The notes below the pieces were generated by a model. That model made no database searches, was not told the origin of the DNA, and saw nothing but the letters and a program-made list of their open reading frames with translations. Both the position numbers and the translations under genes were made by a program. A stretch of 64,000 bases of DNA from Bartonella grahamii ATCC 700132 (GTDB taxonomy: Bacteria; Pseudomonadota; Alphaproteobacteria; Rhizobiales; Rhizobiaceae), in assembly GCF_000518085.1 (NCBI RefSeq), contig NZ_KI912377.1, positions 1-64,000 of the forward strand, given 5' to 3'. Numbering within the stretch: position 1 is the stretch's first letter; every line of letters starts with the position of its first letter. Of this stretch, positions 29,300 through 38,431 are shown piece after piece.

Positions 29300-32053
29300 A
29301 TGATAACCAAGGTATCTAAAAATCACTTGTATTCGTGTGTTTTTACAGCAGCTATTTTTTCTTTTTTATTAAATATAAATATTGAGGCGCATTCTCATGC
29401 ATTTGTATCACTGTCATGTGACGAAAACAAATTGCCTTATAAATGCAGTGATGGTGTAAAGCATACAATTAGTGATAAAGTATATAAGTTCACGGTACCT
29501 GTTAAAGAAAAGAATGGGGAGGGTAGTTCTCTCATATTGCCTGCTGCTATAGTAGTGCAGGAGCCAAATACAGTTATTCAGGCAATGCGTGTAGAGGTTG
29601 AAGCTACTGCGGGTATAGAAGATATTTATGGTGTTTCTGTATCACAAGGGGGAAGAATTGTTTTGAGTGATTCAGCTTTTAAAAATGTGTCAATAGGTCT
29701 TAAAGCTGATAGTGGAATGATTGAGGTTAATCGTGGAACAATTGAGGCTTCTCAGTTTGCAGCTTATGCAGAGAAGCGAGGAGCATCTGTTACGTTAACG
29801 AATACAAAAATTAGAGTGGAAGGTTTGGGTATCGGTCAAGAGAGTGCTCTTTTCGTTAGGGCTGATGCGGGTATTCAGATGAAAAGTGGTTTTATTGATG
29901 TGAATGATGCTGCTGCGCTTTATGTGGGGAGAGGGGGGAGTGCGACTTTAGATGGTGTTACCATTACTTCAAAATATCAAAAAACAGAAGACGATGAAAA
30001 TACAAATGAAAAGATTGCACATACAGTTTTCAATGTAAAACATCAGGGTTCTGTTTATTTAAAAAATACGAATATTATTTCTACGGATGTTCATGTTTTA
30101 ACAGTTGGACAAGATTCTAACACACTGTCCAATAATGGAAGGGAAGGAAATATTTTAATTTCGCGGGTTAATATTGAAGATTCAACAATTAAAGCAATAG
30201 GTAATAAACATGGTATGTATTTTGAGATGGATGGGGGGAATGATGCGTATGAACAGGGACTTGTCTTTTTGAAAAGGACGATTTTTGAGGTTCCAGATGG
30301 AACAGCTATTCACAGTAATAATAGTCGTAGTTATATTGCAGTAACAGAAGGTACAAAAATTTTTGGTGACTTATTATTAACAGCTGAAAAGGGAGGGACT
30401 GTAGCGATTTTGGCTGATTCTTCTTCATTGATAGGAGGGACTCGTGTTGCCGATAATTCTATTGCTGAGCTTTATTTGACAGGGGGATCAAAATGGTTTT
30501 TGACAAAAAGAAGAGAGATAGATTCGCAAGTTGCAAACCGCACAAATTCATTTATTTCATTTGTAAAAATTTCTAATAGCTTTATTGCTTTTGAAACTCC
30601 AATGTTTCAGGAGTATCAGACACTTTATATTGGGGAGGGAGAGAAAGAAGTTTATAGTGCGCAAGAAAGTGCTGATATTTATCTCAATACACATTTCAGT
30701 AGTGATGGTTTGCTCGATAATAAAAAGACTGATCGGCTTTTGATACAGGGTGATGTTTCTGGAAAAACGACAGTTTATGTGCAATTTGTCACAGGAAACC
30801 AAGGTGAGATAGCAACCGGTGAAAATGTTCATAGTATTTCACTTATTCAGGTTTCTGGAAAAGCGGCAGAAGATTCTTTTCAGTTAGATCGTGCTTATAT
30901 TGCATTAGAAGGGTTGCCTTACCGATATTATCTTCATGCTTATGGTCCAGATTCTACTCTTGGAAATGCACAAATTTCTCAAAGATTGGTTGATGGAAAT
31001 GGAGATTTTTGGGATTTTCGCCTTGAAAGTAAGTATATTCAGCCTTCTTTGGGAGTGTCTGTTATCCCTCATTCTGAGTTAAAGGTCAGAGAGGTTGTTC
31101 CACAAGTTCCAACCTATCTTTTGTTACCGAATGCTTTGTTTCATATTGGACTCATGGATATCAGTAATCAACAAAAGGAATTGCAAGTTACGCAGTCTAT
31201 TCCTCGCAAATTATTAAAAGTTGAAGGGAATTTTGCTTTATCTGTCCACGGTTATGGTGGGAGTTATCGTTATGTCTCGGATCTTTCTACACTTAAATAT
31301 GGGTACGATGGTAATGTTGATTATAACGCTATAAAAACAAACATTTTGCTCAAAACAATAGAGAGCGCATATAGTACAACATCTTTTGGGATTATGGGAA
31401 CCTATGGAAAGCTTTCCTTACAACCTCGTAATGTGGAACAAAGCCAAAAGAGTACGTTTAATAAATGGTCATTTACGACATACGGTAGTGTGAAACACAA
31501 CACTGGTTTTTATGTAGATGGTCTTTTATCTTATGGTTTGTTTAAAGGGGATGTGCTTACCCATACTTGGGGTAGGACGGCGACATTAAAAGCAAATCCT
31601 TTGAACGTTTCGTTTTCTGCTGGTAAAGTGTTTATGACAGGATATGAAGATCTTATTTTTGATCCGCAACTCCAGCTTATTTATCAACATCTTCAATTTG
31701 ATAAGTTTCGTGATATTGATGGATTTGATGTTGAGATGAAAAAAATAGGTCAATGGTTGGTGCGTATTGGGGGGCGTTTAAATAAAACATTTTCAGCATC
31801 TGAAAAGGATCGTATTATTTGTTTTTATGGTAATATTCATCTTTCTAATCGTTTTGGTAAAAAACAATTTGTTCATTTTAAAGATGTTTTCCAGTTGGGT
31901 TCTTTTGGTTCTTCTTTAGAAACAGGTTTGGGTATTAATGCGCAGTTTTCTTCTAAAGTTACACTTCACAGTGATCTTAGCTATCAGCATAGGTTAACCA
32001 AGGCTGGTTTTTCTGGAGTTCATTTTTCTGGTGGTTTGCGCTATCATTTTTAA
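29300..32053 (+). CDS. Autotransporter (type Va) with beta-helix passenger
   Basis: 917 residues. N-terminal signal peptide of ~30 residues, then a passenger of about 570 residues made of short beta-strand repeats typical of a right-handed parallel beta-helix (repeated patterns of the kind GASVTLTNTKI and GGSATLDGVTI). A pertactin-like junction follows near 490-520 (LLIQGDVSGKTTVYVQF). The last ~270 residues form a beta-barrel with alternating aromatic strands and a terminal Phe (GGLRYHF), the outer-membrane insertion signal. Several such autotransporters exist in Bartonella. No protease triad was noticed, so adhesion or shielding is the likely role. The gene is intact although neighbours are broken. 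Confidence 0.85.
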   Translation: MITKVSKNHLYSCVFTAAIFSFLLNINIEAHSHAFVSLSCDENKLPYKCSDGVKHTISDKVYKFTVPVKEKNGEGSSLILPAAIVVQEPNTVIQAMRVEVEATAGIEDIYGVSVSQGGRIVLSDSAFKNVSIGLKADSGMIEVNRGTIEASQFAAYAEKRGASVTLTNTKIRVEGLGIGQESALFVRADAGIQMKSGFIDVNDAAALYVGRGGSATLDGVTITSKYQKTEDDENTNEKIAHTVFNVKHQGSVYLKNTNIISTDVHVLTVGQDSNTLSNNGREGNILISRVNIEDSTIKAIGNKHGMYFEMDGGNDAYEQGLVFLKRTIFEVPDGTAIHSNNSRSYIAVTEGTKIFGDLLLTAEKGGTVAILADSSSLIGGTRVADNSIAELYLTGGSKWFLTKRREIDSQVANRTNSFISFVKISNSFIAFETPMFQEYQTLYIGEGEKEVYSAQESADIYLNTHFSSDGLLDNKKTDRLLIQGDVSGKTTVYVQFVTGNQGEIATGENVHSISLIQVSGKAAEDSFQLDRAYIALEGLPYRYYLHAYGPDSTLGNAQISQRLVDGNGDFWDFRLESKYIQPSLGVSVIPHSELKVREVVPQVPTYLLLPNALFHIGLMDISNQQKELQVTQSIPRKLLKVEGNFALSVHGYGGSYRYVSDLSTLKYGYDGNVDYNAIKTNILLKTIESAYSTTSFGIMGTYGKLSLQPRNVEQSQKSTFNKWSFTTYGSVKHNTGFYVDGLLSYGLFKGDVLTHTWGRTATLKANPLNVSFSAGKVFMTGYEDLIFDPQLQLIYQHLQFDKFRDIDGFDVEMKKIGQWLVRIGGRLNKTFSASEKDRIICFYGNIHLSNRFGKKQFVHFKDVFQLGSFGSSLETGLGINAQFSSKVTLHSDLSYQHRLTKAGFSGVHFSGGLRYHF

Positions 32054-32461: not shown

Positions 32462-32775
32462 GCTCTATCGTTTCGTGTTTTTATGCTTTAAAATTTTGTA
32501 AAAAGCGTTTTTGAAGCTGTTTGTATCAATCGCATTATTGTAGGTGGATAATGAGAAAAATGGTAAAGCGTGAATACTTTTAAAATCAAATGCAACATCT
32601 TTAGTTCTTATAAGGATAAATCCTTAAAAAAATATTCTAATGACTGTATTAAATATATGAACAAGATCATGTCTTATTTGTGAAATAGATATGAAATATA
32701 ACTTTTAAATCAGAGTGGGGGCTGTGAGATCTTTTTTCTTCTTTGAGACGTGGGGAGAAGAGGTTGGTCGTATCG
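32462..32775 (+). repeat. Imperfect direct repeat, copy A
   Basis: About 315 bases that align along their whole length, with small indels, to 37248-37575. Shared blocks include TTTGTAAAAA, TTTTTGAAGCTGT, ATTATTGTAGGTG, AAAATGGTAAAGC, ATGAAATATAACT and TTAAATCAGA. No coding sense was found. It abuts the IS6 transposase relic. Together with copy B it brackets the ATP-grasp/EamA region. Confidence 0.75.
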
Positions 32776-33032
32776 AAAAAGTCGTTTAGAAGTTTTTATT
32801 ATTGTTTCAAATACAGAAACATTGAAGAGCTTTTATTAAAATGGGGTGTAAAAGTAGATCATATTTCCCTCAATTTCTGTTTTTTGAAATATGCATCTTT
32901 AATGGAAAGATATTTGCGAAGTTTTAGGCAGTCGCATTCGCATTGTGACTTCATTTGTATCGATAAGATTTATATCAAAGTTGAGGGTCAGTAGAAATAT
33001 CTTTATCGGACTATTGATAAACATGGTGTTTC
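32776..33032 (+). pseudogene. IS6-family transposase relic
   Basis: Reads across one stop as the N-terminal and first catalytic part of an IS6/IS26-type DDE transposase: RNIEELLLKWGVKVDHIS (HTH region), LKYASLMERYLRSF, then ICIDKIYIKVEGQ (the first catalytic Asp in the usual D-E-T-Y-I-K-V block), a stop, and KYLYRTIDKHG. The remaining half with the second D and E is absent. The last part overlaps the final codons of the ATP-grasp gene on the other strand, so the junction lies inside that gene's 3' end. Confidence 0.7.
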
Positions 33033-34276
33033 CATATGATGCTTAAGGTGTCATCAAGCCATTTATGGTAATTGCGTGCTTCTTCGTTTGAGTTATGAAC
33101 AGAGAAAATAAAACCAGGATATCCACCAAATGCTGGTGGAGGTGGTGAAGTATGATTGGTTTCAAAGAAAATGATAGTTCTGGCGGTTTGAGGATGCTGT
33201 GCAACCTTATCTAGACCTAAAAATCCAGAAAACCGTCCATGACCACGAAGAGGAATAATGTAATTTGCAGCCACTTTTTCAGCTGGGAGTATATCGGGAA
33301 GGTTTGGGTTTGGTTCAGCTAAAGCGGCATTCATACATAGTTTTGCAAATGAAATCCCTGTACCTTGCTCAACAATAAAATGGGAGACACCCGATCCACC
33401 TATACGAGCGCCGATCTCAATTATATAAGGTAAATTATTAGCATCTAGACGTAGCTCTACATGGGCAGCACCCATATTTATGCCAAGAGCTTTAACTCCA
33501 GAGCATGCAGCCTCACATAAAGCAATAATTAAAGGATCATCTATATCACGGCGTTGACGATAAATTGTTTCTTCAAACCATGGTCCCTCAGGCTGTCCCT
33601 TGTCTCCAACGGTCAGAACGTGTACACCTGCTGTATCAACAAAGCATTCTACGACAAACTCTTTTCCTGGCAAATACTGTTCTATAACTAAACCTACAGG
33701 TTTATTTTTATCATTAAAACGTGCCATGTCTTTATGCTGAACATTCCATACGGCTTTAATGAGATCAGGAAGTTCGGCGGAATTTTTAGCTAACATTACG
33801 CCTGCACTTGCCCATCCAGAGACGGGTTTAATAACGAGTGGATAATCCAAGGCTTGTATTTGTGATAGGTCCTCTGGATTATCTATATAAAAGAATCCTG
33901 GTGTTCTTAAGCCTGCTTTAGCAAAAGCTTGACGCATGAGATATTTATTTCTGGTTAATGCTGCTACTTCTGGTTCAATACTTGGAGTATTGATTTTTTT
34001 TGCAGCCAAAGCTGTCCATAGGATGGCTTCTTCGCGAAGGGTCATAACTCCACCAATATTGCGTTCTTTTACTCCCGTTGCAAAAGTGTCTAGAGCTAAC
34101 TCTGGGTTATCAAAAACAGGAAGTTGCCAAGTTGAAGTGACTGCTGCGGGGTGTTGAGTGGGAGCACTTTCAGTGGTATCATAGATCATGACTAATTCGA
34201 TATTAGCTGCTTGTGCTGCTTCAAATATAAATGGTAATTTTGCATTGCGCTGGCAAACTAACGCGAGTTTTTTCAT
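33011..34276 (-). CDS. ATP-grasp ligase (amino-acid or peptide ligase-like)
   Basis: 421 residues. N-terminal pre-ATP-grasp Rossmann-like part (1-110), ATP-binding lysine around 150 (YPLVIKPVSG), adenine-side EQYLPGKEF near 199-207, and the metal-binding block HVELRLDANNLPYIIEIGARIGGSG at 272-296, in which Glu287 and Arg291 are present. This resembles carboxylate-amine ligases such as L-amino-acid ligases rather than purine or biotin enzymes. Its ATG overlaps the stop of the EamA gene (ATGA), so the pair is translationally coupled. The last few codons may derive from an IS6 relic, giving a modified C-terminus. Substrates are unknown; a dipeptide or conjugated metabolite exported by its partner is a reasonable guess. 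Confidence 0.75.
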   Translation of the reverse strand: MKKLALVCQRNAKLPFIFEAAQAANIELVMIYDTTESAPTQHPAAVTSTWQLPVFDNPELALDTFATGVKERNIGGVMTLREEAILWTALAAKKINTPSIEPEVAALTRNKYLMRQAFAKAGLRTPGFFYIDNPEDLSQIQALDYPLVIKPVSGWASAGVMLAKNSAELPDLIKAVWNVQHKDMARFNDKNKPVGLVIEQYLPGKEFVVECFVDTAGVHVLTVGDKGQPEGPWFEETIYRQRRDIDDPLIIALCEAACSGVKALGINMGAAHVELRLDANNLPYIIEIGARIGGSGVSHFIVEQGTGISFAKLCMNAALAEPNPNLPDILPAEKVAANYIIPLRGHGRFSGFLGLDKVAQHPQTARTIIFFETNHTSPPPPAFGGYPGFIFSVHNSNEEARNYHKWLDDTLSIIWKHHVYQ

Positions 34277-35220
34277 TTTGTTTCCTCATTAAATTTGGAA
34301 TTTTGAGAATGACGTTTCTGTTGCCATGTAGATACCTTTGATGCATCTATAAATAAGAGTATCATCCCTATAACAACTACAATCATAGCAATTATTTTGA
34401 TCATATTGAGAGAAGGGCTCGAGCCGATTATCCATTCACATGCAACCACTGCAAAAGGGGATAATACGCCGATAGTATTGGCGTATAATACGCCTCCTTC
34501 GGCTAAAACTTTTTGGTATAATACGTAAACTGGTGCCGAACAAACAGTTCCTAAAATCAATATTTTAAATATATCTTCTAACTTAAGATAGAAGAGTGGG
34601 GCAGGATCAAAAATAAATAATGGTATAAATGATGCTGCAGAAATTGTCGTGATCCAAGCCAATGAGGTGAGCAAAGGTAAATTTTTAAGATAAAGTTTGG
34701 ACAATAAGCCATAAGCAGAATAAGAAAGTGCTGCTGTTAAAGCAAGAGCTGTTCCTATTAGGCTGTAATATCCACCCTCTGCACTGTTTATATTAAATGC
34801 TATAGCCGCTACACTGACAATTATCATACCGATAAGCTTTAACCATGAGAACGTAAGGTTATTCGTCAGTGCACCCAATATGTAGGTAATACCTGGAATA
34901 GTAGCGAGAACCATAGTTAAATCACTGGCTTTGAGTGATTTTAATGCGCCAAAACTGCATACAAAATACAGCGAAAATCCTAACACTGAGAGAATTAAAA
35001 AAGAAGGTATCATGGAAAGTAATGGTAGGGATCTGAAAACAGCTTTCTCACGAAATACTGCAATCAGCCATAAGGTGGCAGCGGTGGCAAACAACCTAAG
35101 TCCAACCGCATGCATGACGGGTATACTGCTAACCAAATTCTTAGATAATAACCAACTTATAGAAAACAACGCCAGAATGGCAAAAGTAAATAATAATAAC
35201 CGTCCTTTTAAAAAACTCAC
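34273..35220 (-). CDS. EamA/DMT-family transporter
   Basis: 315 residues with about ten hydrophobic helices in two similar halves of roughly five each, the duplicated plan of drug/metabolite transporters. The first half holds GLRLFATAATLWLIAVFREK and the second half AYGLLSKLYLKNLPLLTSLAWI. Members typically export amino acids or small metabolites across the inner membrane. It overlaps the ATP-grasp gene by four bases, which suggests export of that enzyme's product. Only 4 bp separate its ATG from the end of the decayed gene upstream, so all belonged to one operon. Confidence 0.8.
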   Translation of the reverse strand: MSFLKGRLLLFTFAILALFSISWLLSKNLVSSIPVMHAVGLRLFATAATLWLIAVFREKAVFRSLPLLSMIPSFLILSVLGFSLYFVCSFGALKSLKASDLTMVLATIPGITYILGALTNNLTFSWLKLIGMIIVSVAAIAFNINSAEGGYYSLIGTALALTAALSYSAYGLLSKLYLKNLPLLTSLAWITTISAASFIPLFIFDPAPLFYLKLEDIFKILILGTVCSAPVYVLYQKVLAEGGVLYANTIGVLSPFAVVACEWIIGSSPSLNMIKIIAMIVVVIGMILLFIDASKVSTWQQKRHSQNSKFNEETK

Positions 35221-35224
35221 TGAT

Positions 35225-36416
35225 TTAATTCTCCAATGACTCGCCGCGCATAATATGAGGTTGAAAAATTAAATCGTGGCTTTGAGGTTTGCGGTCTTCC
35301 AAGATTATTTTGGATGTAATCCTTCCCCCCTTTTTCAAATAGTCATAATCTAATGCTTCAAGTGCTTCTATATCTGCTATCATTAATACTATTACTTGCT
35401 TAATACGCTCCAAATAAAATTGAAGATAACACTGATCCGTTTCAAACAATACTTTGTTACGCACCAATATTTCAAAAAGCAAGACACCTGTACCAGAACC
35501 GAATGTCATATGCTGATCAGAACCTTTTGGATAACGAAATATGCGTTCTAATAGGACAAACTCTGTTATTTCTTTCCAAAATTTGGGATGATTTTGTAGC
35601 ATAATAAGCACTGTAATTAAGTTCACTTTAGTTTCTTCTAGAAGACCTGTAAACTAATTTAATTTTATATACAGATTTTTATCCAATGGCCGCGGTCCAG
35701 TATGATGTGCATAGTCATGATAATAGCCTCATAAACAGCGAACATCATAAATATCCTCTTTAGATAAGTTACAACTATGCAATTGATCGAATGAGAATTT
35801 ACTATCTCTATCAAGCAAACATTCAGCTTCCACAATTGTTTGCTCATTGTAAATATCGAAGAATTTGCTGAAAAAAACAAAGCAAATGCCTGCTTATTAA
35901 TTTTCTTAGCAGTCGCCCCAGATTCTGGGAATAGAACAATGCAATTGCCTTCTAAACAACCCTTTGATGCTATTCGCGTTTTTATACATTGAAAATGTAA
36001 TACATAATTCTTTGTATATTTTACGTTGGCAAGATAGGCTATTTCATGACGGTAGCCTGTAACTAATTTTATCCGGAATTTTTCCGGATCAGTCCCATTC
36101 GTTGCATGCATTGGAGCTAAGGGAAATAGCGGAGCGTCTGGTAATGGTGCTTTGAATGCAGCCAAAGTGTTATCAAACTTTGGGGGAGTATTAAACTGTT
36201 GAGCATCCACCGATAAAGATCATCAGAAGTGGTATTTAAAAGTTCTGGAGATAATCCGTTAATAATATCTGCATGATAGTTCAACAGAGTGATCAATTTA
36301 TTGATCATATTATTATCCGCTGAAGTTGGTTCCTCAATACTCCCATCGAGTTCTTGGTGCACACGAAATTGGTTTATCAGATTAACAATAGAAAGAAGTG
36401 CTTCAGACTGTTTCAT
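35225..36416 (-). pseudogene. Decayed gene upstream of EamA/ATP-grasp pair, family not recognised
   Basis: Three minus-strand pieces form one former gene. ATG 36416 begins the first piece, with LINQFRVHQELDGSIEEPT. It is out of frame after DDLYR, and the next frame picks up VDAQQFNTPPKFD near 36208 and continues with LVTGYRHEIAYLANV and GNCIVLFPESG until it decays near 35800. The last piece, from about 35650, contains KGSDQHMTFGSGTGVLLFEIL and ends at 35225. The pieces total roughly 350-400 residues. Neighbouring positions and tight spacing show it belonged to the ATP-grasp operon. I do not recognise the family. Confidence 0.55.
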
Positions 36417-36419
36417 GAT

Positions 36420-36975
36420 AAGCTGACTTTAGTGAGTGGAGCAAAAAGACCATTGGCACTTGTCCAAAATTTTCGATAATATTTAGCTTATAGCGGTTTG
36501 TCGCAACAGACGTTGTGATACAAGCAACTGCTTTTTCAGCATTACAAAGAACGGTTGTGTCAGCATTTCTGTTGGCAAATATTTTGTCGTATTAATTAGC
36601 TAGCAAAGATTGAGGGGCAGAGTGAGTCGCTACGTTTTAATTTCATCAGACTTATTGCGTTTAGTTAAAACCATAGAGTGAGTAGGCATAATAAAGCTGT
36701 TAAACAATTGCATATCGCCTAAACGCATAAATATGAGAGTGTATACAAATCTGGGTAAGCCGTACACCTTAGAAGATATCCATCTTTTTTCTGGGTGGGT
36801 TTCTCAAAGGCTTTTTCAGGAGTTGTGTATAAGATAATACGTGATTCTAAATCAGCAGAAGAAATATTTTGATTGTGATTGTCAAGCCACTATTGTGCTG
36901 CAGCTGTGCAGTTAGTATCTGCAGGGATAAGTGTATAGATAAAAGTATTATTTTCAGATTGTATGAATTCTATAC
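36420..36975 (-). pseudogene. Second decayed gene of the ATP-grasp operon, family not recognised
   Basis: Protein-like pieces on the minus strand: ADTNCTAAAQ, then WLDNHNQNISSADLES, RIILYTTPEKAFEKPTQKK and GYLLRCTAYPDLYTLSY. Then a shift to GDMQLFNSFIMPTHSMVL, more breaks, and a final AVACITTSVATNRYKL. The 3' end reads FAPLTKVSLS with its TGA overlapping the ATG of the next decayed gene (ATGA), which shows the two were once translationally coupled. The product is unrecognised. Confidence 0.45.
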
Positions 36976-37247
36976 TTTTTAAGTATAATAATATATTTAA
37001 AATAGTGGAATATTTGAAGTATATCAAGCAAAATAAGTTAAATAATTTAGTGTTTTACAAAATATATGTATATGTGAAAGAAAATTGTGATATAATTTGG
37101 TCTTATCATTATCCTATTATGCCATAAAACATCGTTGTTTAGGAGAGTAATTGAGCAGGAAAAATTCTACGCAGGGGATATTTATTGGATATGTTAGACG
37201 AATGATTAGAATGGTTAAGCGAAGGTGAATGATACATAAAGCACACC

Positions 37248-37575
37248 GCTCTATCATTTTTTTGATGATGAGCTTTTTTGTTTTAATATTTTGTAAAAAT
37301 TGTTTTTGAAGCTGTCCGTATCGATAACATTATTGTAGGTGAATAATAAGCAAAATGGTAAAGCATGATAACCTTTACTATCAAATTCAATATACTTAGC
37401 TTTTTAATTAAGATAATATTTTAAAAATTATTCTATAGCCATGATTGTATTGAATATATGAAAGATATTATCATTGCCTTGTTTGTAAAAGAAACATGAA
37501 ATATAACTCTTAAATCAGATTGGGATTGGCAAGATCTTTTTCCTTCTTTGGAATCGTTAAGAAGGTCGGATTAAA
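37248..37575 (+). repeat. Imperfect direct repeat, copy B
   Basis: Partner of 32462-32775, in the same orientation, about 4.8 kb apart. Differences are mostly substitutions plus a few short indels. It ends about 70 bases upstream of the ATP12 gene, so this copy may be the original flank of that gene. The decayed and intact genes of the ATP-grasp operon lie between the two copies. Confidence 0.75.
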
Positions 37576-37642: not shown

Positions 37643-38431
37643 ATGCGTGAGATTTTGGATCATTTTGATATGCCATTGAATAAGAATAAAAAGAGTTCTG
37701 TTCAAAAGATTCAAAATCTTTCATGTCAGCCGCTAGCAAAACGATTTTATAAACAAGTGAAGATTGCTTGTGAGGAAGGGCGTTTTACTATCTTATTAGA
37801 TGAACGTCCCGTTAAAACGCCCGCAAGGCGTCATTTTCATGTGCCAACAGAAGTGTTTGCTGAATACGTTGCTCAGGAATTTGAGAGCCAAAAGCACGTT
37901 GTTGATCCTGCAAAAATGCCGATGACGCGTTTGGTTAATACTGTTATTGATGGTATTGCTGATGATATGCAGGTTGTTTTTGAAGATTTATTGCGTTTCG
38001 TTGCGTGTGATATGATCTTTTATCGTGCACAGACATCTAAAGAGCTGGTGCAAAAACAATCTGAACAATGGGATCCTTTATTAGATTGGGCAGAAAAAAA
38101 ACTGGGTTCAAGGTTTTATTTGACAGAAGGGCTGATGCATGTGGAACAATCACCAGAAGCACTTCAAGCTGTGAGTCATTATTTACGTAGCGTTGAGTCT
38201 CCTTATATGCTTGCTGCTCTTCATATGATGACAACCTTAACGGGATCTGCTCTTATTGCTCTTGCTGTTGCTGCGGGAAGCATTGATGCTGATCATGCTT
38301 GGTCTATTGCCCATTTAGATGAAGATTGGATGATGGAACAATGGGGAATAGATAAAGAAACGATGGTGCGTCGTGCTCATAAAAAAGTTGAATTTAAGGC
38401 TGCGGCTACAATTGTTACAACTTGTTTATAA
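37643..38431 (+). CDS. ATP12-family F1-ATPase assembly chaperone
   Basis: 262 residues matching ATP12: KRFYKQVKIACEEGRFTILL, then DERPVKTPARRHFHVPT at the N-terminal domain, FVACDMIFYRA in the middle, and WDPLLDWAEKKLGSRFYLTEG. In mitochondria ATP12 binds the F1 alpha subunit before assembly; the alphaproteobacterial protein is presumed to act alike in the cytoplasm. The start ATG 37643 follows AGAGGTAAAC. The residues before KRFYK are a variable extension. No ATP synthase genes are nearby, which is usual for these bacteria. Confidence 0.88.
   Translation: MREILDHFDMPLNKNKKSSVQKIQNLSCQPLAKRFYKQVKIACEEGRFTILLDERPVKTPARRHFHVPTEVFAEYVAQEFESQKHVVDPAKMPMTRLVNTVIDGIADDMQVVFEDLLRFVACDMIFYRAQTSKELVQKQSEQWDPLLDWAEKKLGSRFYLTEGLMHVEQSPEALQAVSHYLRSVESPYMLAALHMMTTLTGSALIALAVAAGSIDADHAWSIAHLDEDWMMEQWGIDKETMVRRAHKKVEFKAAATIVTTCL

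Follow-up and report, generated by a model that had tools for sequence, protein, structure and literature searches.

An operon with two intact and two broken genes in Bartonella

The stretch analyzed here, referred to below as the window, comprises the first 64,000 nucleotides of contig NZ_KI912377.1 of Bartonella grahamii ATCC 700132, whose genome spans 2.2 Mb. On its reverse strand lie two intact genes: one for a 421-aa ATP-grasp enzyme, a predicted L-amino-acid ligase of the BL00235 type (33011-34276; PF13535, E = 4e-21; PF18130, E = 9e-11), and one for a 315-aa exporter of the EamA family (34273-35220; PF00892, E = 1.5e-22), the two overlapping by 4 bp. Upstream of them on the same strand are the remnants of two further genes. 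The first (35220-36416) encodes a protein of the DUF6421 family, predicted to be a PolE-like Fe/pterin-dependent oxidase. The second, which we call gene A (36406-36964), resembles TdaC and BacA in its intact relatives and has a predicted prephenate dehydratase fold.

A first-pass annotation made from the sequence had placed the ligase and the coupled exporter gene correctly, both in frame, and had read the region as a decayed biosynthesis and export operon whose upstream enzymes, at least two genes on the same strand, were lost. Translated searches (tblastn) bear this out. The DUF6421 gene (36416-35220) is recovered as four pieces in three frames with two stops, at 64-82% identity to an intact Bartonella protein, and gene A (36964-36406) as three pieces in three frames with two stops, at 60-76% identity to other Bartonella proteins. 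The annotation had not recognized the decayed genes; both could be named through their relatives. In five other Bartonella genomes, an uninterrupted 401-aa DUF6421 gene adjoins the EamA gene and is preceded and overlapped by gene A (~186 aa), which is intact in some of the five only. In the operons of relatives, the first two genes overlap by 14 bp and the others by 4 bp.

The DUF6421 protein is a predicted PolE-type oxidase

In the window, the fragment open reading frame (ORF) at 35225-35626 matches PF19985 below the curated cut-off (E = 2e-4, 20.6 bits). Intact homologues score 65.6 and 59.3 bits against a cut-off of 25, placing them within the family. The metal motif H[DE]xxHx(21-23)E is present in all 33 aligned DUF6421 sequences, which are relatives of the broken window copy. 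A structural model of a Bartonella DUF6421 protein (pLDDT 91.6) has SnPolE and SmPolE, described as 'Fe2+/pterin-dependent', as its best PDB matches, followed by dipeptidyl peptidase III. Family, motif and fold, as assessed on these relatives, thus point to a PolE-type Fe/pterin oxidase, for which we predict Fe(II)-, O2- and BH4-dependent oxidation of an amino acid.

The likeness to PolE of polyoxin synthesis has limits, as the structural match comes with only 17-18% sequence identity. The polyoxin cluster is not known to contain a gene A. PolE itself acts on L-Ile within a nucleoside-antibiotic pathway, and the motif HE/DxxHx(21-23)E is the one given for its family (PMC12614342).

Gene A groups with TdaC and BacA rather than with PheA

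Proteins from intact copies of gene A give weak matches to PF00800, the prephenate dehydratase family. The best PDB matches to the model of a Pseudomonas gene A protein (pLDDT 90) are prephenate dehydratases, including 6vh5, 2qmx and 2qmw, consistent with a shared fold; searching PDB sequences with the gene A profile yielded only matches that we judged to be due to chance. The TRF motif of the dehydratases occurs in none of 32 aligned gene A sequences, one of which ends before that place. In an alignment with BacA and PheA, gene A and BacA, which also lacks TRF, read VPM or IPM at this position in nearly all rows, and the ENS motif is replaced in gene A.

Profile comparisons, which used three BacA and three PheA sequences, relate gene A to BacA with 99.3% probability (E = 2e-20) and to PheA with 52% (1.5e-4), against 93.5% (2e-7) for BacA and PheA. 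In a phylogenetic tree, gene A, TdaC and a Proteus homologue form one clade (97/90), with BacA (99/93) and PheA (100/100) each standing apart. When plasmids were searched with gene A by tblastn, 83 records matched, of which 58 were from Phaeobacter and several were annotated tdaC; gene A is 43-44% identical to TdaC, compared with 31-32% to plasmid matches annotated as BacA. Gene A is therefore nearer BacA than PheA, yet falls into a separate clade with TdaC, and we assign it a predicted prephenate dehydratase fold and a place beside TdaC, then BacA, and not PheA. The TdaC finding weakens the simpler idea that gene A is BacA.

We also searched all 44 genomes of the genus Bacillus in our sample with the gene A profile. 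Eight gave matches at E ~1e-77; these are exactly the genomes with an adjoining DUF6421 gene, and DUF6421 occurs nowhere else among the 44. A further 26 gave matches at E ~1e-20, and the three of these that we read are bacA, upstream of bacB-bacC-bacD. Each genome has one match at most, never two, so the profile does not reach PheA at E <= 0.001. We accordingly rejected a plain prephenate dehydratase as the identity of gene A, given this and the missing TRF motif.

A variant of the dehydratase idea would have gene A act free of feedback, boosting phenylpyruvate and phenylalanine; DUF6421 would then oxidize phenylalanine in the manner of the pterin-dependent phenylalanine hydroxylase, and the ligase would form a dipeptide of oxidized Phe. 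It would fit that no ACT domain is listed for intact gene A proteins, that a precursor-boosting role has been suggested for TdaC (accessible part of PMC7497051) and that the Fe/pterin enzymes known before PolE are hydroxylases of aromatic amino acids (PMC12614342). The consistent lack of TRF, the replaced ENS motif and the lack of TRF in BacA as well argue against it, and we regard this variant as distinctly improbable.

TdaC, the nearest named relative of gene A outside DUF6421 clusters, works in a different pathway, and no DUF6421 match was found on the Phaeobacter plasmids. Prephenate has been suggested as one possible TdaC substrate (accessible part of PMC7497051). The accessible part of PMC8283759 does not mention TdaC, and that of PMC10157211 describes a cyanobacterial cluster with a prephenate decarboxylase gene.

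Several further observations concern gene A. Three cysteines (C63, C136 and C144 of the first aligned sequence) are invariant in 32 gene A proteins and were not seen in the BacA and PheA sequences; Phaeobacter TdaC keeps the equivalents of C136 and C144, not that of C63. In Proteus mirabilis NZ_OL790811.1 (6262-9451), gene A lies between genes that we named by eye as RraA/aldolase-like, cupin and class II DAHP synthase, on a record with no DUF6421 match, possibly a second unstudied setting of the TdaC-like family. Among the Bacillus-genus genomes, the gene A operon (8/44) and BacA-level matches (26/44) never share a genome (0/44), as if they occupied one niche; a calculation that treats the genomes as independent, which does not hold, puts the chance of such exclusion at 2.5e-4. 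No BacD match was obtained in B. atrophaeus, and our BacA sequences come from other members of the genus.

The ligase is of the BL00235 type

The window ligase aligns over its full length (residues 2-418) with 3VOT, the L-amino acid ligase BL00235 of Bacillus licheniformis (E = 4.7e-87), and reaches only 2e-8 with BacD. It combines the domains of the ATP-grasp fold (ATP-grasp_4, ATPgrasp_N) with this full-length similarity to a characterized L-amino-acid ligase, and we therefore take it to be a BL00235-type enzyme, with predicted ATP-dependent dipeptide synthesis from free amino acids. It differs from BL00235 at the stretch of the pocket residue P85, which reads EPAL in most Bacillus and Priestia sequences and EEAI in those of Bartonella and Pseudomonas.

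The ligase of the related Bacillus glycinifermentans operon is 38% identical to that of the window over 418 aa. In B. paralicheniformis, the operon ligase aligns with 3VOT end to end (E = 2.7e-274), as a near-identical orthologue, and sits in an operon of the order EamA-ligase-gene A-DUF6421-AvtA. Because of this match, and because five Bacillus loci that are licheniformis-related by name (L094, L099, L101, L103 and L114) share that gene order, BL00235 probably belongs natively to the DUF6421/gene A operon. In the accessible parts of PMC6920838 and PMC4302092, BL00235 is treated solely as a biocatalyst for Met dipeptides, with no native pathway.

The operon recurs across phyla and on plasmids

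The first-pass annotation had expected that intact relatives would reveal a conserved operon. Four Pseudomonas loci (L066-L069) carry the four genes in the Bartonella order at 66-77% identity, with EamA relatives in the equivalent position and one stop in the aligned stretch of the L068 EamA gene, and further relatives of the operon occur in Bacillus, Priestia, Marinobacter and Staphylococcus and on one Pantoea plasmid. A scan of genome contigs gave 69 loci, from which we left out one contig-end fragment (L129), retaining 68 with a DUF6421 ORF. Gene A or a piece of it lies within 5 kb on the same strand in 68/68, an upper estimate of the linkage. An ATP-grasp ligase was found at 33 of these loci, EamA at 25 and an AvtA-like aminotransferase at 12; with class IV enzymes counted too, an aminotransferase lies within 6 kb at 46, including the four Pseudomonas loci, and such genes are found nearby in Bacillus, Paenibacillus, Streptomyces and Micromonospora. 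Judged by the names of their organisms, the loci come from four phyla: Bacillota, Pseudomonadota, Actinomycetota and cyanobacteria. At one locus (L075), gene A and DUF6421 read as a single ORF, an apparent fusion.

A tblastn search of a plasmid collection found DUF6421 in seven records. Those of Pantoea sp. SS70 and X85 carry EamA, ATP-grasp, gene A and DUF6421, in that order. On a mobilizable plasmid of Staphylococcus xylosus, a DMT transporter gene is joined by ATP-grasp, gene A and DUF6421, the set spanning the plasmid origin. Other settings vary: in Serpentinimonas, gene A-DUF6421 occurs with NTF2-like and LysE genes, and the larger cluster of Pseudoalteromonas xiamenensis includes, besides transporters and an aminotransferase, three ATP-grasp genes and a DAHP synthase/chorismate mutase.

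The annotation would have been undermined had the ligase-exporter pair usually stood alone beside unrelated upstream DNA; this was not the case among the loci seen, which did not come from a ligase-led scan of all genomes. Its suggestion of an undescribed pathway also holds so far, as we found no description of the operon in the literature searched, which leaves out most subscription journals. A paper that mentions both Bartonella and ATP-grasp (PMC7858074) concerns another cluster, as far as its accessible part goes. We rejected a phage-borne origin for the operon, with a tblastn search of one DUF6421 protein finding nothing in 50,697 phage records, and a distant blastn search with the Pantoea operon gave no match in E. 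coli genomes.

Two observations stand beside these. Pantoea sp. X85 (L055, 8989-10127) and Pantoea endophytica (L127, 8989-10195), unlike Pantoea sp. SS70, have a DUF6421 gene that is divided between two frames, so oxidase loss is also under way outside Bartonella. In S. xylosus (NZ_CP154368.1; L054, L150), the four-gene operon has three GNAT acetyltransferase genes and a recombinase gene for neighbors, and the acetyltransferases could serve self-protection.

A proposed route from prephenate to an exported dipeptide

From the gene families, the gene order in intact relatives and the decay described here, we propose that the window holds a horizontally gained and decaying four-gene operon, bacilysin-like in its working, that led from prephenate through an oxidized amino acid to an exported dipeptide. 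The chemistry is what we infer from the protein families, and we give the reading as a whole about even chances. In this scheme, the gene A protein, TdaC/BacA-like and without TRF, would process prephenate to a 2-oxo acid, most likely a non-aromatic one formed by non-aromatizing decarboxylation as in BacA. An aminotransferase, in Bartonella a host enzyme, would transaminate the keto acid to give a non-standard amino acid, which DUF6421, using Fe(II), pterin and O2 like PolE, would desaturate or hydroxylate. The BL00235-type ligase would then join the oxidized amino acid to a second amino acid at the expense of ATP, and EamA would export the dipeptide. Where LysE- or AzlC-like genes occur and no ligase match was found, the free amino acid would be exported instead. 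In the window genome, where both tailoring enzymes are dead, at most the ligase and exporter would still act, on ordinary amino acids. The link to prephenate draws on the DAHP synthase/chorismate mutase of the Pseudoalteromonas cluster and on the class II DAHP synthase near the Proteus gene A.

The comparison with bacilysin is one of logic rather than of gene content. In the bac operon, BacA, BacD and an exporter together yield an exported dipeptide (accessible part of PMC9147277), and the operon described here likewise brings together a protein of the type that acts on prephenate, an ATP-grasp L-amino-acid ligase and an exporter. Among the 68 DUF6421 loci, however, blastp within 6 kb found a BacB-like cupin at none and a BacC-like protein at one. 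The DUF6421 oxidase appears in their stead, and the ligase is of the BL00235 type, not the BacD type. In its proposed working the operon resembles bacilysin synthesis, yet by gene content it is no bacilysin operon.

Several points weigh against this scheme. The reactions of gene A and of this DUF6421 subgroup are themselves ones we infer. The patterns used in the genome scan came mostly from gene-A-linked proteins, which favors the 68/68 count. No gene A match was found in two of the seven DUF6421 plasmid records, the most distant ones (Tsukamurella and Burkholderia ubonensis), and Phaeobacter and Proteus have gene A but no DUF6421 match. A DAHP synthase was seen in one DUF6421 cluster, fused to a chorismate mutase, and a blastp search with this fusion protein gave no match among the 68 loci. 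Near the four Pseudomonas loci, the aminotransferase is of the ilvE type and could be a housekeeping neighbor. TdaC, flagged with L116 as a long branch and thus unsure in its placement in the tree, belongs to the synthesis of tropodithietic acid, which derives from phenylacetyl-CoA, and its role is called obscure in the accessible part of PMC7497051.

Other points against the prephenate scheme would fit an aliphatic route, in which DUF6421 would desaturate or hydroxylate an aliphatic amino acid (Ile, Leu, Val or Met), as PolE does with Ile. The gene A protein would come in afterwards, perhaps by dehydrating the hydroxylated product, and the ligase would couple the modified amino acid to a small one, with no part for prephenate. 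PolE, the DUF6421 enzyme described in PMC12614342, uses L-Ile, the BL00235 products are Met-Gly, Met-Met and Met-Ala (accessible parts of PMC6920838 and PMC4302092), the aminotransferases are of branched-chain or AvtA type, and some loci also have AzlC- or LysE-like exporters, several of these names being given by eye. This route sits poorly with the closeness of gene A to BacA, a prephenate decarboxylase, rather than PheA, with its modeling onto prephenate dehydratases and with the DAHP synthase/chorismate mutase of the Pseudoalteromonas cluster, and we consider it unlikely.

Returning to the prephenate scheme, its broader form would make gene A and DUF6421 the core of a widespread, undescribed operon family, found in at least four phyla and on plasmids, that makes a new class of oxidized prephenate-derived amino acid exported free or as a dipeptide; we see the case for this as evenly balanced. 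If true, it would give BL00235-type ligases a native role and open that of TdaC to test. The conserved two-enzyme core ties together three questions: the role of BL00235-type ligases, the substrates of DUF6421 enzymes other than PolE and the role of TdaC-like proteins. Because Bacillus paralicheniformis and Pseudomonas hold apparently complete operons, the product can be tested for directly.

Probable gain at one site and uneven decay in Bartonella

Across our sample of 71 Bartonella genomes, PF19985 occurs in ten, and among 297 genomes across the order it occurs in the window's own only. This sparse distribution, together with Pseudomonas proteins that are 66-77% identical in the same gene order, indicates lateral gain, probably by Bartonella.

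The operon is bracketed in the window by two direct repeats on the forward strand, one past the 3′ end of the ligase gene (32479-32745) and one (37274-37550) just upstream of a gene for a putative ATP12-like chaperone (37643-38431, forward strand), present in 71/71 genus genomes. In a search of the window's own genome the copies are 77% identical (E = 7e-54), a similarity that, though well diverged, is far beyond chance. The first-pass annotation had noted the bracketing by repeats rightly and had put their length at 320 bp, where we find nearer 270 bp. They do not belong to the cluster: both are copies of the stretch that precedes the ATP12-like gene, and copy 2 (here taken as 37274-37560) is in its native place. 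Single copies upstream of this gene in operon-less genomes led us to reject both a cluster part and a transposon end.

Specifically, a single repeat lies just upstream of the ATP12-like gene in 13 ligase-less genomes (G005, G009, G019, G021, G022, G023, G026, G029, G033, G034, G038, G050 and G052; the match is under 100 bases in G026, G033 and G050), and ten genomes have one on each side of the operon (G000, G020, G024, G030, G031, G039, G051, G053, G054 and G066). Because operon-less genomes have one repeat and these carriers one per side, the operon occupies one site upstream of the ATP12-like gene, with the flank duplicated in the two-repeat group. In five others (G035, G048, G064, G065 and G069) the operon is turned round at the same site, with the ligase on the strand of the ATP12-like gene and the repeat between them.

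Decay was counted in the 24 genomes with ligase remnants, scoring a gene as intact when it gave one tblastn piece covering >95% of the reference with no stop; in single genomes, some frame breaks may be artifacts of draft assembly. The ligase is intact in 15, EamA in 14 (including G068, whose match lacks the first 12 residues), DUF6421 in five and gene A in four (three near the ligase and one, in G068, on another contig); no genome has all four. The tailoring enzymes have thus been lost more often than the ligase and exporter in Bartonella, a metabolite pathway caught mid-decay in a host-bound lineage.

The surviving pair might have been kept for a role of its own, as a plain dipeptide exporter with no tie to the lost pathway, a Bartonella-specific idea compatible with any chemistry. 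Both genes are intact in 11/24 genomes, six of which, including that of the window, have neither upstream gene intact, and median pairwise dN/dS is ~0.2 for both (ligase 0.197, 104 pairs with dS >0.02; EamA 0.194, 90 pairs), with 0.191 for DUF6421 (10 pairs) and 0.154 for gene A (3 pairs). Nine genomes share one junction that deletes gene A and most of DUF6421, and three of the nine keep ligase and exporter intact. One deleted genome, G054, is nonetheless closer by distance to the undeleted window than to the other deleted genomes compared, suggesting that the deletion was moved by recombination or recurred, so dN/dS cannot be dated to after the loss. The ligase is, moreover, broken in 9/24 genomes and the exporter broken or lost in 10/24, and for this reason the pair may be disappearing too; the annotation's suggestion that a ligase product is still made and exported in this genome is no more than a possibility. 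We hold retention for a separate role to be possible, if doubtful.

Minor observations complete the picture. Bartonella massiliensis (L104), which is not among the 24, has gene A, DUF6421 and EamA in pieces and no ligase match in its stretch, and in G035 part of DUF6421 lies ~42 kb from the ligase. A third, weaker copy of the repeat (70%) is found on another contig (G000:C16:6810-6963), and the far flank of the window locus is formed by a gene that we named by eye as autotransporter-like (29300-32053, forward strand).

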